Origin: Candidatus Levyibacteriota bacterium | GTDB lineage: Bacteria > Patescibacteriota > Microgenomatia > Levybacterales > UBA12049 | DNA length: 37,550 nt | Direction of reading: 5' to 3' | NCBI GenBank assembly: GCA_016188975.1 | Contig: JACPGQ010000068.1 | Location: forward strand, 1-37,550 | The notes under the pieces: model-generated | What the model was told of the DNA's origin: nothing | What the model saw: only the letters and a program-made list of their open reading frames with translations | Databases searched by the model: none | Position numbers and translations under genes: made by a program | Shown: positions 27,453 to 37,331 of the stretch, piece by piece | Layout of the letters: each line of letters opens with the position of its first letter | Numbering within the stretch: position 1 is the first letter of the stretch

Positions 27453-27895
27453 AGAGGTACGCTACTAAGAAAATTTTGTTATCATTCGTTCTTCTGATAT
27501 GGTTGCTTATCTCAATCTTGCGTGGGCTCTACAATGATTCAAAGCTATTCACGCAGGACCGTTATTTATTTACCTTGAGTAATTATGAAAGACGACGAGA
27601 AGTGTACGGGGACATTTACGTTATGGCGAGTGAGATACTGAAGATTACCAGTGGTGAATCCATACTTCTTACAGGAAATGACGGAGGTTTGTATTTCTAT
27701 CTTCGCTACCTTCTCTATCCGCAAAAAGTGTATTGGGTAAATAATATCTCACTGGAAGAAGAGAAAGAGAGGTCATGGAAGTATGTTTTTCGGCCGTACG
27801 AGACAAAGCTAAGGGATCAGAATGATGTGAGAGCTGTGACGCCGGTCGTCGACTCTCTATCGAAGAAGCAGTTAGGGATTCTGATTACGTTATGA
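27449..27895 (+). CDS. Small membrane-anchored soluble-domain protein
   Basis: This 148-residue protein has one N-terminal anchor (KKILLSFVLLIWLLISIL, after MKRYAT) and a soluble extracytoplasmic domain. I know no named family for it. The stretch ESILLTGNDGGLYFYLRYLLYPQKVYW resembles the soluble domain found at the C-terminus of GT-C proteins, for example IFFLGNEPMMYLL in the gene at 16330. It is coupled by ATGA overlaps on both sides, between two GT-C genes, the second of which has almost no C-terminal soluble domain. It may be a detached domain that works with that partner. This function is inference. Confidence 0.7.
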   Translation: MKRYATKKILLSFVLLIWLLISILRGLYNDSKLFTQDRYLFTLSNYERRREVYGDIYVMASEILKITSGESILLTGNDGGLYFYLRYLLYPQKVYWVNNISLEEEKERSWKYVFRPYETKLRDQNDVRAVTPVVDSLSKKQLGILITL

Positions 27896-29217
27896 CGTAT
27901 CTTGCTGTCGTCATTATCATTTTGGTTTTATCCTGTCTTGGGTACGCGATTCTCAATAGTATTCTTCCGAAGAAGTTAGCGAACCTTCAGTTTCTTATAG
28001 GAGGTGGGTATGCCCTTGCACTTTTCTTAGTGATTGCCCAAATGTTTCTTATGTCACTTCTCAATCTGGGAATAACCAGGATGACCATCCTTTTCCCATG
28101 GAGCATTTTAGTTATTAGTTACTTCATTTTTTTTAGAAGACGGAAGATATTGATTCCCTCTATTACTTTTCCTAATGGTATTTTGGAGAAACTTGGCATC
28201 ATTCTTCTCTCAAGCCTCGTCATCTTTGTTGGGATGGAAGGGATACTGCGTGAGCCGATAGGGTGGGACGCTGTTGCGACATGGATGCTGCAAGGAAAAG
28301 GCTTTTATTATTCAGGAGGGCTTAGCACTGACATTTATCGCTATGCACAGATTGATTCACCCCCGGGGATAGGACTGATCCTTATGTTTTTTTATACGCT
28401 CCTGGGGAGAGGAGATGATCACGCAGTCCTTCTCTTTTTCGGCTCAATTTATCCAGTAATCCTTTTTCTGCTCTACGGATCAATAAAAAGCTACACAAAC
28501 GCGAGAACAGCGTTACTGTTTACGCTTTTTTTTGCAACGCTCCAGCTAGCAATCCGTCAAGCTGGACGATTCGAGGCCGGTTACGCGGACCTTCCGCTAT
28601 CTTATTTTTTCCTTTCTTCAGCAGCTTTTCTTCTGAACTTCTACAGAACGAAACGATCACTCTTTTTTTTGATTGCAACACTTTTTGCCGGGATCGCGTC
28701 TTTCGTAAAAAATGAAGGATCTGCTTTTTTTCTTGTTTTTTTGCTTGTCTCGTTGTTCGCGCAGATTCGGTTGAGAAGGTGGTACATTTGGTATACTATT
28801 CCGGGAATTATAACATTTGCATCGTGGCTTCTCTTTAAGTATTTTTATCCTTTGCACCCCTCCTACTATGAGCAAAGTTACTTCGTTATTGAACGATGGG
28901 ATTTAGTTATTAAGCAGATGTTTTTTGAATTTTTTCGGGTTGACAGGTGGAATTTTCTTTGGCTGGGTTTATTTTTGTCTATTTTCTTACTTCCTAAAAA
29001 AATTGTAACGTTTATTCCGTTTCAGCTCATGCTGCTTCAGTTCATTGGTTATTTTTTCATTTACATGGTCACGCCACTTGATCCAGTAGATCATATCGTC
29101 GGGTCGTTAGACCGGCTGTTGTTACAACTTGCCCCTTTAGCAATTTTGTCCATCGCATATTGTAGCTATGCTATACTGAAAAATAGCTCGTTTTTAGGTA
29201 CTTCTCGCAATGACTGA
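27892..29217 (+). CDS. GT-C-like membrane glycosyltransferase
   Basis: This 441-residue protein has about 11-12 membrane helices. Three helices precede the acidic loop EPIGWDAVATWMLQGKGFYY (Asp126), and IDSPPGIGLILMFFYTLLG follows, as in GT-C enzymes that take sugars from polyprenyl phosphate. It almost lacks the C-terminal soluble domain of its neighbours and ends a few residues after the last helix with FLGTSRND. Those final codons contain an 11-base half of the palindromic repeat seen whole in the GT87 gene (29204-29214), so the C-terminus may have been reshaped by an insertion. Start ATG overlaps the previous stop (ATGA). Donor and acceptor unknown. Confidence 0.76.
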   Translation: MTYLAVVIIILVLSCLGYAILNSILPKKLANLQFLIGGGYALALFLVIAQMFLMSLLNLGITRMTILFPWSILVISYFIFFRRRKILIPSITFPNGILEKLGIILLSSLVIFVGMEGILREPIGWDAVATWMLQGKGFYYSGGLSTDIYRYAQIDSPPGIGLILMFFYTLLGRGDDHAVLLFFGSIYPVILFLLYGSIKSYTNARTALLFTLFFATLQLAIRQAGRFEAGYADLPLSYFFLSSAAFLLNFYRTKRSLFFLIATLFAGIASFVKNEGSAFFLVFLLVSLFAQIRLRRWYIWYTIPGIITFASWLLFKYFYPLHPSYYEQSYFVIERWDLVIKQMFFEFFRVDRWNFLWLGLFLSIFLLPKKIVTFIPFQLMLLQFIGYFFIYMVTPLDPVDHIVGSLDRLLLQLAPLAILSIAYCSYAILKNSSFLGTSRND

Positions 29218-33375: not shown

Positions 33376-34976
33376 TACTTTTTGGATTACTGGTGGGAAT
33401 ATATGCAAATGCTCTTTTTTTTCTCGGGTTAGTAGGCTTGCTTTCAGAAGGTTTAGTAAAGCTGACGTCTTTATTTTTTTTAGCAGTTATTCTTGTGAGA
33501 TATTTTTCTCATATTCTTTCAGTGTTACAAAGGATACAACACATTATTGCGAACCGGCATTTTCCATCGTCACTCTTCTTAATTCTTCTGTTGCTTCTCA
33601 GTGCAGTAAATCTTGTTGCCGCATTTGGACCGGAATTATCTTTTGATGCATTGTGGTATCACCTAACCCTCCCTAAAATGTACCTTTCCACTCACAGTAT
33701 TCGATTCATTCCAGGTGGGCTCCTTTACTATTCAGCCATGCCACAGCTTGCAGAGATGGTATATATGGGAGCACTTTCGTTTGGTTCGGAAATCTATGCT
33801 AAGCTAATTCATTTTTTGTTTGGCGTTCTCACAGTTCTACTCATATATAAAACAGCAAGACTTTTTGTATCTCAGAAGTTATCTCTCTTTGCGAGCCTAG
33901 TCTTTTATGCAAATTTAGTTATTGCATGGGAATCAACTACCGCTTATGTAGATCTGGTACGTGTGTTTTTCGAGACTGGAAGTATCTATTTATTTTTGCT
34001 TTTTCTCAATAAAAAAAAGAAAACGATTCTCTGTTTATCAGCAGTATTTATTGGACTTGCAACAAGCGTAAAGATCTTAGCTTTTGGATCGTTGTTTGTC
34101 TTGCTGTGTGCAATGCTATATACAAAGCTTCATGCTCGCAGTTTTCCTCAGCTACAGTGGAGAGACTTTTTGCTCGTATCAATAGCATCATTGTTTATCC
34201 CTCTTCCATGGCTTCTCTTTTCTTTTACTCATACTGGCAATCCCCTCTATCCTTTTTTTACTCCTCTGTATCCTACATCGCTCCCAATATTTTCAATCTC
34301 TAATCTTATGGATTCTGTCGCAATTTTTTTCGTTTCCCCAGACCCCTTATCTCCTATCTATATAATTTGTCTTCCATTGGTACTACTCGTTTTTAAGAAA
34401 TTGTCTTCATCTGAGAGGATTCTTTTTCTCCTTGGTGGTGTAGCGCTTTTTGTTTGGTTTTTGACTCCGAAGAGTGGAGGAGGGAGATTTATTATCGCAT
34501 ATTTGCCTTTATTTTCTGCTATTGTTGCCGTGATCCTTGGGAAATTAGAATTAACAAAGCAAGTATATCTTTATCGATCGATTGTATTCGCTACCGTTTT
34601 TATTATGGGTATTTCAATTGTGTATCGTGGTATTGCAAACAGTAAATATATTCCAGTTATTGTAGGTATTCAGTCGAAAGAGCAGTTTTTGAGAAATAAT
34701 CTTAACTTTGCGTTTGGTGATTTTTACGACACCGATGGATTCTTTTCCAAAAACATAAAGAGAGATGACGTCGTACTTCTCATCGGCTTCCATAATCTTT
34801 ATTACGTTGATTTTCAGTTCATAGATCAGAGTTGGGTGAGACGAGGGGATAAATTTAATTATGTAGCTGTGCAGCATGCTTCCTTACCTGAGAGATTTTC
34901 TACCATGGAAAAAATATATGAAAATAAGCTGACCGGCGTATCCGTCTATAATGGAAGAGGGCTATGGGAATACTAA
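33372..34976 (+). CDS. GT-C-like membrane glycosyltransferase
   Basis: This 534-residue protein has about 11-12 membrane helices. Three come before the acidic loop GPELSFDALWYHLTLPKMYL (Asp92, His97), then FIPGGLLYYSAMPQLAEMVYMGAL. This D-x4-H-x3-P-K loop is common in GT-C enzymes of uncertain family. A soluble C-terminal domain (from about residue 430) has DVVLLIGFHNLYYVDFQFIDQSW, resembling the ends of its neighbours and the detached domain at 27449. Donor and acceptor are unknown. It starts by ATGA on the previous stop and overlaps the GT87 gene by 13 bases. Confidence 0.77.
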   Translation: MILFGLLVGIYANALFFLGLVGLLSEGLVKLTSLFFLAVILVRYFSHILSVLQRIQHIIANRHFPSSLFLILLLLLSAVNLVAAFGPELSFDALWYHLTLPKMYLSTHSIRFIPGGLLYYSAMPQLAEMVYMGALSFGSEIYAKLIHFLFGVLTVLLIYKTARLFVSQKLSLFASLVFYANLVIAWESTTAYVDLVRVFFETGSIYLFLLFLNKKKKTILCLSAVFIGLATSVKILAFGSLFVLLCAMLYTKLHARSFPQLQWRDFLLVSIASLFIPLPWLLFSFTHTGNPLYPFFTPLYPTSLPIFSISNLMDSVAIFFVSPDPLSPIYIICLPLVLLVFKKLSSSERILFLLGGVALFVWFLTPKSGGGRFIIAYLPLFSAIVAVILGKLELTKQVYLYRSIVFATVFIMGISIVYRGIANSKYIPVIVGIQSKEQFLRNNLNFAFGDFYDTDGFFSKNIKRDDVVLLIGFHNLYYVDFQFIDQSWVRRGDKFNYVAVQHASLPERFSTMEKIYENKLTGVSVYNGRGLWEY

Positions 34977-36124
34977 GGAAGACTGTCATTATTTCGGCTT
35001 TTTTTATCAGTACAGTTATACTCTTGCGAACTTTTTTTCTCGGAACGTATCCGGATTTTACCGTCTACTTCGCAGGATCAGAAGCTTTTTTACAAGGTAA
35101 AAATCCTTACAATACAAGTCCGGGAGCATTTGCAAATTACGTGTATCCTCCGTTCGTTTTGCTTATTTTCCTGCCCTTTATCTTTGTACCAGTACCATTT
35201 GCAGCACAGGTTTTTTTGAGCATATCGATCATGAGCTTGCCTTTTGGAATTTATTTTTGCCTAAAGGCGCTTGGAAAACTGTCGGTTTATTCATATGCAT
35301 TTACCCTTCTTCTCAGCGCTCTCGCGTTTCCGACGAAGTTTACTCTCGGTATGGGACAAGTAAATCTTGTTATTTTTTTTCTCATCTCAGTTGTTTTTTA
35401 TCTGCTTCATAAGAACAAAAGATATACTGTCGGATTTTTTCTGGGTTTAGCATACGCTATTAAGTTATTTCCCATAGCGCTACTCTATTATTTTCTGTTA
35501 CAAAAGAAGTGGATAACTGTGATTTTATCTATTGGGGTTTTTATTATTTTTTACGTCGTCAGTGTTCTTTTCAGTGGAGTTGATATACAAAAAACATATT
35601 TTGAAAACGTGTTGCCAGGAATAAGTACATCGTACCAAAAAGATTATTATAATCAGGCGCTCTCCGGTTTTTTTGCAAGACTTCCAATTGAAAAAACAAC
35701 GGGGATGTTTCTTAAAAACATCACAAGTATCCTTTTTATTGTTCTTTCACTTATCCTCCTTTTCTGGTCAAGAAAAAAGAAGAACCTTGAGAATATATCT
35801 TTTTCCTTTATCATAACGCTCAGCTTGATCGTGAATCCGTTCTCCTGGCAGCACCATTTTGTGTGGCTTATTTTGCCGTTTATCGTGACATTTTATAAGT
35901 TCGTTCCAACAAGCTTGTCATTGCGAGGACCCCTCACCACCAAGGTGAGGGGGACGCGGCAATCTCATATAAATAACTATATTCTTCTAAGTTCCTCGTA
36001 TTTGTTGGTGGCTATAAACTTTCCAAATCCACAGAGTCTACCAGTTCTTTTCCAGTCACACGTATTATTTGGTACTATTCTTTTATGGTTCTTGCAGGCA
36101 AAACTGCTTCTAGGAAACAAATAA
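34964..36124 (+). CDS. GT87-family (DUF2029) polyprenol-phosphate-sugar transferase
   Basis: This 386-residue protein has about 10 membrane helices. GTYPDFTVYFAGSEAFLQGKN (Asp31), NPYN and ANYVYPPFVLLIFLPF near the N-terminus, and YYNQALSGFFARL further on, are family signatures of GT87, whose known members are mycobacterial polyprenyl-phosphate-mannose transferases. It would act on the outer membrane face. Residues 318-335 (LSLRGPLTTKVRGTRQSH) are encoded by a 54-base palindromic repeat inserted in frame in a loop between the last two or three helices. Apart from that insert the protein is of normal length. The start overlaps the previous gene by 13 bases. Confidence 0.86.
   Translation: MGILRKTVIISAFFISTVILLRTFFLGTYPDFTVYFAGSEAFLQGKNPYNTSPGAFANYVYPPFVLLIFLPFIFVPVPFAAQVFLSISIMSLPFGIYFCLKALGKLSVYSYAFTLLLSALAFPTKFTLGMGQVNLVIFFLISVVFYLLHKNKRYTVGFFLGLAYAIKLFPIALLYYFLLQKKWITVILSIGVFIIFYVVSVLFSGVDIQKTYFENVLPGISTSYQKDYYNQALSGFFARLPIEKTTGMFLKNITSILFIVLSLILLFWSRKKKNLENISFSFIITLSLIVNPFSWQHHFVWLILPFIVTFYKFVPTSLSLRGPLTTKVRGTRQSHINNYILLSSSYLLVAINFPNPQSLPVLFQSHVLFGTILLWFLQAKLLLGNK
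35915..35968. repeat. Palindromic repeat inserted in frame in the GT87 gene
   Basis: The 54 bases have outer arms TCATTGCGAGG and GCGGCAATCTCA and an inner perfect 9-base-pair stem, CCCCTCACC (35930-35938) with GGTGAGGGG (35944-35952), around an ACCAA loop. ATTGC (35920-35924) and GCAAT (35959-35963) extend the pairing. The outer arms match a widespread bacterial palindromic repeat often seen as TCATTGCGAG...GCAATCTC in many genomes, including CPR. The length is a multiple of three and adds 18 residues without a stop. Confidence 0.85.
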
Positions 36125-36128
36125 CGTT

Positions 36129-37331
36129 ATGGTAAGTTATTTATTTTTTGCACTGATATTTTTATCATTTGTTTTCGGACAATTTGCCAGATTGCCGTTA
36201 TCGAATGGAGTGTATCTGACGCTTATAGATGTTACTGTTGTGACATTTTCGTTGTTCTTCACCGTTTCGTATCTCATACAAAAGAAAGGAAAGTTCGTAA
36301 AATCCCCCCTTTTTGTACCGTGGCTTTTATTCTGTGTCGCTGCTGTTATTTCACTTCTTGCTAATAGTCTCGTTCTGAGGACATCAGAGATTGCTGTTGC
36401 AAGTCTCTACTTGTTGCGTTTTTGTGCTTATACACTTCCGCTTTTTTTTCTACCCTTTTTTTCAAAAAATCAGAAGCTATGGCTTGTTCGAGTACTCATT
36501 GTGAGTGTTTTGGTTACTGTCGGTGTCGGCTTTGTGCAATTCGTCTACTATCCTAATTTGCGGAACCTTTTTTACTTGGGGTGGGATGATCATCTGTACA
36601 GGCTATTTTCTGTCTTTCTTGACCCAAATTTCGCGAGTGTATTATTTTCGTGTCTCTTTATCGTCTTAGTAGGACTCACGGTTGAGTTTATAAGAATTGG
36701 TAGGATGAAGGCCGTTGGTTTGGCAGGGTTAAGCGTGCTTACAGCTCTCGCAGTATTCTTGACATACTCCAGAACTGGAATGATTGCGCTTGTGATCGGA
36801 ACGATTGTCCTTTTTTTTCTGAAGGGCTATAAGAGGTTGCTGCTAGTTTGTCTTGGAGTTTTTGTGCTCTTTCTTGCATTTACCGCTGATCTAAAGGTAG
36901 AAGGGCTAAATCCATTTCGCACTGCTTCCTCTGTCGCAAGAATTGAATCAATAAAAATTGCATTCGGAATTTTTGAGAAAAATCCCATCTTTGGCGTCGG
37001 GTTTAATGCATACCGCTATGCCCAGCACCGGTACGGTTTCAGGCTAGATGGCGTGTGGGAGACGAGTCATGCAGATGCGGGGACAGACAATAGTTTTCTT
37101 TTTGTTCTTGCGACGACGGGAATAGTAGGATTTAGTGCATATCTTTATTTTTGGTACGTGTTGCTCAGCAGAACATACGCTACCATAAAACAGGAAAAGA
37201 GTGGGTTACCTGTAATCGTTTTCGCAACACTCATTGCCGTCTTAGTAAGCTCACTATTTCTGAATACACTTTTCTATCCGTTTATACTGATTTGGATAGT
37301 AAGTCTCTTTGGTGTCATGGAGCGTAAGTAA
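36129..37331 (+). CDS. O-antigen ligase/polymerase-like membrane protein (Wzy_C/WaaL family)
   Basis: This 400-residue protein has about 11-12 membrane helices. FLDPNFASVLF, then FLTYSRTGMIALVIG (Arg215), a loop with Arg271, and GVGFNAYRYAQHRYG followed by WETSHADAGTDNSFLFVLATTG (His314) are the conserved features of the Wzy_C superfamily, where an arginine and a histidine of the large outer loop are needed for transfer of lipid-linked glycan. It may ligate the glycan to a cell-surface acceptor or polymerise it; the two cannot be told apart by sequence. It closes the plus-strand run, starting 4 bases after GT87, and its 3' end overlaps a convergent gene by 17 bases. Confidence 0.88.
   Translation: MVSYLFFALIFLSFVFGQFARLPLSNGVYLTLIDVTVVTFSLFFTVSYLIQKKGKFVKSPLFVPWLLFCVAAVISLLANSLVLRTSEIAVASLYLLRFCAYTLPLFFLPFFSKNQKLWLVRVLIVSVLVTVGVGFVQFVYYPNLRNLFYLGWDDHLYRLFSVFLDPNFASVLFSCLFIVLVGLTVEFIRIGRMKAVGLAGLSVLTALAVFLTYSRTGMIALVIGTIVLFFLKGYKRLLLVCLGVFVLFLAFTADLKVEGLNPFRTASSVARIESIKIAFGIFEKNPIFGVGFNAYRYAQHRYGFRLDGVWETSHADAGTDNSFLFVLATTGIVGFSAYLYFWYVLLSRTYATIKQEKSGLPVIVFATLIAVLVSSLFLNTLFYPFILIWIVSLFGVMERK

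Follow-up and report, generated by a model that had tools for sequence, protein, structure and literature searches.

An in-frame palindromic repeat in a GT87 glycosyltransferase gene of a Levyibacteriota bacterium, very probably one copy of a mobile element of REP type

Introduction

The stretch of DNA analysed here, referred to as the window, comprises 37,550 nucleotides from Candidatus Levyibacteriota bacterium, and includes a gene for a membrane glycosyltransferase that is interrupted, without loss of its reading frame, by a palindrome of 54 bp. The question raised by this locus is how such a sequence came to lie within a coding region. Palindromes that are read in frame have been described mainly in Rickettsia, and in a few other bacteria. 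The segment is very probably one copy of a mobile palindrome of REP type bearing a CGTC/TGTC tag, which has been inserted in frame in the GT87 gene and would be tolerated there as 18 extra residues.

The insert in the GT87 gene

The host gene (34964–36124, forward strand; PF09594, E 7.4e-33) is followed on the same strand, 4 bp past its stop codon, by an O-antigen ligase-like gene (Wzy_C, 36129–37331; PF04932, E 6.8e-21). Its open reading frame is intact and encodes 386 amino acids, and the inserted segment (35915–35968, forward strand) is read through as 18 codons, so that the earlier note was right to describe 54 bases, a multiple of three, free of stops. On the forward strand, the segment consists of a 5' arm GTCATTGCGAGG with a TGTC-type tag (35917–35928); an inner hairpin CCCCTCACC-ACCAA-GGTGAGGGG (35930–35952), recognised from folding and from the reading of other copies; and a 3' arm and tail GCAATCTC (35959–35966). 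The central stem of 9 bp (35930–35938 paired with 35944–35952) is enclosed by an outer ATTGC/GCAAT stem. Folding of positions 35910–35975 gave −28.4 kcal/mol, compared with a mean of −15.1 for shuffled sequences (z −4.75), and none of 200 shuffles did as well, in keeping with the strong hairpin noted earlier. As to the earlier suggestion that this hairpin may slow transcription or translation ahead of the ligase gene, a search for intrinsic terminators predicted no terminator-like site.

Homologues of the GT87 protein were found in 12 of the 40 related genomes searched, this genome included. In the resulting alignment of 12 sequences, some of which align in part or end differently, the block is missing from all 11 of the others, as capture of a repeat by this gene would lead one to expect, and the conserved C-terminal residues resume in frame past the insert. 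The homologue in genus mate G001 is shorter here by 18 residues. Because protein identity to this nearest empty site is no more than about 50%, the ends of the insertion are uncertain by a few bases, and the distance of this relative likewise means that a 'recent' insertion cannot be dated. No target site duplication was demonstrable. The alternative that these 18 residues belonged to the protein from early on, and resemble the repeat by accident, can be given practically no credence: no support for it was found, and it is contradicted both by the 11 block-free homologues and by the exact match of each arm to a repeat found genome-wide.

The insertion is accordingly best placed, as a proposal, on the line leading to this genome after its split from the genus mate, although loss in the mate would give the same picture. 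Since the segment lies between two hydrophobic stretches, it likely occupies a loop of the predicted protein, where it would be translated as 18 additional residues and may be close to neutral for protein function. Its retention would be explained by a length divisible by three and by a frame that is both open and hydrophilic.

The repeat family in this genome

Searching this draft genome (76 contigs) for the paired arms TCATTGCGAGG...GCAATCTC, using the pattern TCATTGCGAGGN{13,43}GCAATCTC, gave 17 places, with none for the reversed control; GTCATTGCGAG occurs at 71 places, versus one for its reversed control. The description of the repeat as widespread therefore holds. The 71 sites provided 68 distinct contexts for reading, 65 of them with a recognisable 3' arm. 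One of the three contexts without such an arm lies in the window, as an isolated half element (GTCATTGCGAG with no partner arm; 29204–29214, reverse strand) at the 3' end of ORF 27892–29217; it ends at the stop codon of that ORF and is possibly a remnant. Six loci bearing copies gave no match in Rfam.

The outer arms are constant, while the 65 complete copies contain 61 distinct interiors of 9–58 nt, mostly palindromic. One palindrome, CCACGTACCGTACGGTACATGG with its near variants, is nested within many copies; the interior of the GT87 copy is common to none of the others read. Folding of the interiors was significant for 33 of 59 (p<0.05, mononucleotide shuffles), a signal weaker than by eye because short interiors give little power.

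Most of the copies are paired. An inverted partner lies within 160 bp of 49 of 67 copies, and in all 16 close inverted pairs (74–135 bp long) the GTC tags point outward, never inward; the GT87 copy has no inverted partner within 160 bp. The most likely mobile unit would be the inverted pair of 74–135 bp with its tags outward, and singles such as the GT87 copy are likely to be decayed or partial copies. Two loci (L013 and L015) represent a repeated unit of about 200 bp that holds a repeat dimer; they are 98.5% identical over 132 bp of flank and differ by an inner hairpin of 21 bp bounded by short direct repeats, a loss or gain that fits slippage. Interiors in general may be exchanged by slippage or by conversion between copies.

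In-frame copies in other genes

Insertion in frame is not peculiar to the GT87 gene. Of the 63 copies for which 300 bp of flank is available to either side, 14 fall within a long open frame. For two of these (L084) the frame, which lies between rpsB and tsf, is spurious, and they are not counted as intragenic. The remaining 12 are distributed over nine genes, so that the in-frame capture proposed earlier for one gene is far from a single case. The genes for GatB, GT87, a MurF-like ligase, a long form of ribosomal protein L1, CysS and CarB house one copy each, TsaD has three and TopA two, and the remaining host encodes an RlmK-like methyltransferase. For TsaD, GatB, CysS, TopA and CarB, the added residues appear as clean extra segments by comparison with PDB relatives that lack inserts; in TsaD there are two of them, and the first falls precisely at the junction of residues 123 and 124 of 6n9a. 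For MurF, the alignment to its PDB relative is too weak to place the insert.

Several of these genes have features of their own. Two of the three in-frame repeats in the TsaD gene (L215:1105-2334) are identical and lie about 400 bp apart; the repeat in the ribosomal protein L1 gene (L063:3-833) is within a long N-terminal extension; and in topoisomerase I the repeats of two genera sit at different sites (L048, L226). The intragenic status of some further copies is less certain: L216 is C-terminal, L070 is shrunken, and L072 and L075 overlap a likely gene start. At L075:1545-1610, an endonuclease III gene seems to take its ATG from the repeat (ATGAC at the arm).

Among relatives, six of the 21 copies with enough flank lie in long frames, in genes for Tgt, enolase, TopA (at a site different from those here), the RlmK-like methyltransferase (the two arms of one dimer) and a weakly matched regulator-like protein. 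Lower shares were obtained for other genomes of the class (4 of 43) and, under a slightly different rule, for named records (6 of 95); in both sets some of the frames may be spurious.

The 12 intragenic copies here and the six in relatives use only three of the six possible frames (18/18), reading VIA.., SLR.. or the complementary ..IA....RND. The probability of this by chance is 1.2e-5, or 2.4e-4 allowing for the choice of frames, for copies that are not fully independent (dimers, and a shared methyltransferase insert) and with L084, where both copies are in frames other than these three, left out of the score. Among the 30 flanking ORFs scanned, no two that border a copy belong to a common family, and therefore no split gene was seen.

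These results bear on whether the 18 residues are made at all. A strong hairpin inserted in core genes might be skipped by the ribosome or excised from the RNA, but skipping would not require what was found, namely that all intragenic copies found are in frame, stop-free and confined to three frames (18/18), nor would it require that frame-breaking copies be missing from the 30 flanking ORFs; it is accordingly a very improbable explanation. On the preferred reading, that of a tolerated and translated insertion, copies would land both within and between genes, and selection would remove those that break a frame.

Copies shared between genera

The in-frame dimer in the RlmK-like methyltransferase gene occupies the same site in this genome (G000), in G001 and in G013 (loci L220, L053/L290 and L291), which represent three genera or species lines; the sites in the first two were found by the repeat pattern, and that in G013 by its protein only. 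In an alignment of ten such methyltransferases, six lack the insert and one (G005) has a different long stretch. The arms of the dimer are nearly identical in the three carriers, while the interiors are replaced as a block, a nested hairpin present in this genome being absent in G001. Likewise, the dimers between rpsB and tsf and upstream of hisS are common to this genome and G001, and again the arms agree while the interiors differ as blocks. Part of the repeat family is therefore old, as its copies are shared between genera.

The same observations weaken the earlier suggestion that the repeat is active or recently active. Perfect arms alone are not evidence of recent activity, because arms also stay intact in the shared, old methyltransferase insert of three lineages. 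The GT87 copy, for its part, is absent in G001.

It might be supposed that the methyltransferase gene was hit independently in each lineage, at a preferred site, and that the insert is not shared by descent, given that its interiors differ among the three genera but its arms hardly at all. This is rather unlikely, since boundaries, frame and dimer order are the same, in genomes of one family, and no common target sequence is visible.

Codons in the arms of this dimer agree more often than expected. They are identical in all three genomes at 7 of 8 positions, whereas in the rest of the gene this is true of 35 of 150 codons for a shared residue (p=0.0004). Between G001 and G013, the values are 8 of 8 and 64 of 170 (p 0.0006), and the other two genome pairs gave p 0.015 and 0.02. 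It is tempting to suggest from this that the DNA or RNA of the element is functional, as a binding site or in RNA processing or stability, and that intragenic copies are functional sites rather than passengers; the fact that the G013 copy was found through its protein and not through the repeat favours this, as do the shared intergenic dimers. The codon test nevertheless covers one gene only, conversion by other copies would yield the same codon pattern, and copy number varies widely between genus mates, with 22 sites in G001 and 71 here. A functional element is thus an improbable, though not negligible, alternative to a tolerated mobile repeat. Equally tentative, and of low probability, is the idea of a fixed frame with exchangeable contents, in which the arms would be held at the DNA level across genera, even within coding sequence and in synonymous positions, and the inner hairpin would be replaced wholesale.

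Relation to known palindromic repeats

The nearest kinds are the CGTC-tagged REPs and the Rickettsia palindromic elements (RPEs). The survey of REPs with GTAG and CGTC tags by Di Nocera et al. 2013 (PMC3733652) describes a CGTC/TGTC tag, with TGTC as a named variant; a stem starting with AT; a loop of 4–5 bases of few types, with named exceptions; an unpaired tail that is mostly CCA; inverted dimers; intragenic copies; the lack of a dedicated transposase; and occurrence in five phyla. The repeat studied here resembles these in its tag, the GTC being preceded by T in 53, C in 6 and G in 6 of the 65 complete copies; in its stem, where ATTGC pairs with GCAAT and the complementary A and T stand at the start; in its outward-facing inverted dimers without a dedicated transposase; in its intragenic copies; and in its presence in several phyla. 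It differs in its tail, which is CTC rather than CCA (GCAATC is followed by TC in 34, TT in 18 and others in 13 of 65), and in having variable nested palindromes of up to 58 nt in place of the short loop. It also occurs in more bacterial groups than the five phyla given there.

The same source assigns the Rickettsia elements RPE-4 and RPE-6 to CGTC families. According to the review PMC2229807, RPEs (Ogata et al.) are found in conserved genes, and a Rickettsia guanylate kinase that contains an insert is active. The likeness to protein-coding palindromes of Rickettsia, remarked on in the earlier note, is borne out, in that both kinds interrupt conserved genes in frame and do not destroy them. 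The differences are the host lineage and the exchange of interiors, and the likeness is one of description. According to PMC3116915 (Bertels and Rainey 2011), REPINs are inverted REP doublets that form the likely mobile unit, with singles as remnants, which parallels the dimers and singles here; unlike REPINs, the present repeat has a tag other than GTAG, and in this genome no RAYT gene with this repeat on its flanks was found. Among the papers listed by a literature search covering few subscription journals, none dealt with this repeat in candidate phyla.

Distribution and mobility

The pattern TCATTGCGAGN{5,35}GCAATCT was found in 96 of 281 genomes of the class, at 1 to 130 copies per genome, and its reversed control in none. 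In the genome with 130 copies (G271), several lie at contig ends (C4, C7, C10, C14, C18, C27), and assemblies seem to break at the repeat. The repeat was present in at least 119 stretches of named genomes, the record titles among the matches listed including Chloroflexi, Planctomycetes-type groups, Bacteroidetes isolates, Oscillospiraceae, Nitrospirae, Proteobacteria (with a Rickettsiales bin), Omnitrophota, Patescibacteria and others; and in at least 120 stretches of viral contigs.

A link to a TnpA(REP)-type transposase, which the earlier note had raised, was not supported. This genome has four Y1 transposase (Y1_Tnp) genes, the flanks of which carry other repeats; none of the four has the ends of the repeat studied, and a lone copy lies 98 bp downstream of one of them. 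Among these genes, those at L222:760-1530, L036 and L218 bear short flanking repeats of their own, unlike the repeat studied. Across the 281 genomes, and with kinship ignored, the Y1_Tnp family occurs in 83 of 96 genomes with the repeat and 108 of 185 others (odds ratio 4.55, p 9e-7), but it is missing from 13 of the 96, and from 3 of the 38 that are rich in the repeat. Repeat and family are thus associated across genomes but not tied, and a Y1 enzyme might act on the repeat in trans. Our search found no enzyme that moves the repeat. Its spread could perhaps be due to an enzyme that acts in trans on a single-stranded hairpin form, an idea put forward here with somewhat less than even confidence.

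Significance

These findings extend the phenomenon of in-frame palindromes to a new host, a probably patescibacterial lineage of small genomes in which such repeats lie within several core genes. The classes of gene affected serve tRNA modification, translation, topoisomerase function and the cell wall, with orthologous copies across genera. This provides comparable insertions with which to ask how a repeat moves without a recognisable transposase, why its arms stay intact, and which loops of a protein are tolerant. If the arms do act as a fixed frame around exchangeable contents, then the intragenic copies would continually supply in-frame changes to the surface loops of core enzymes.
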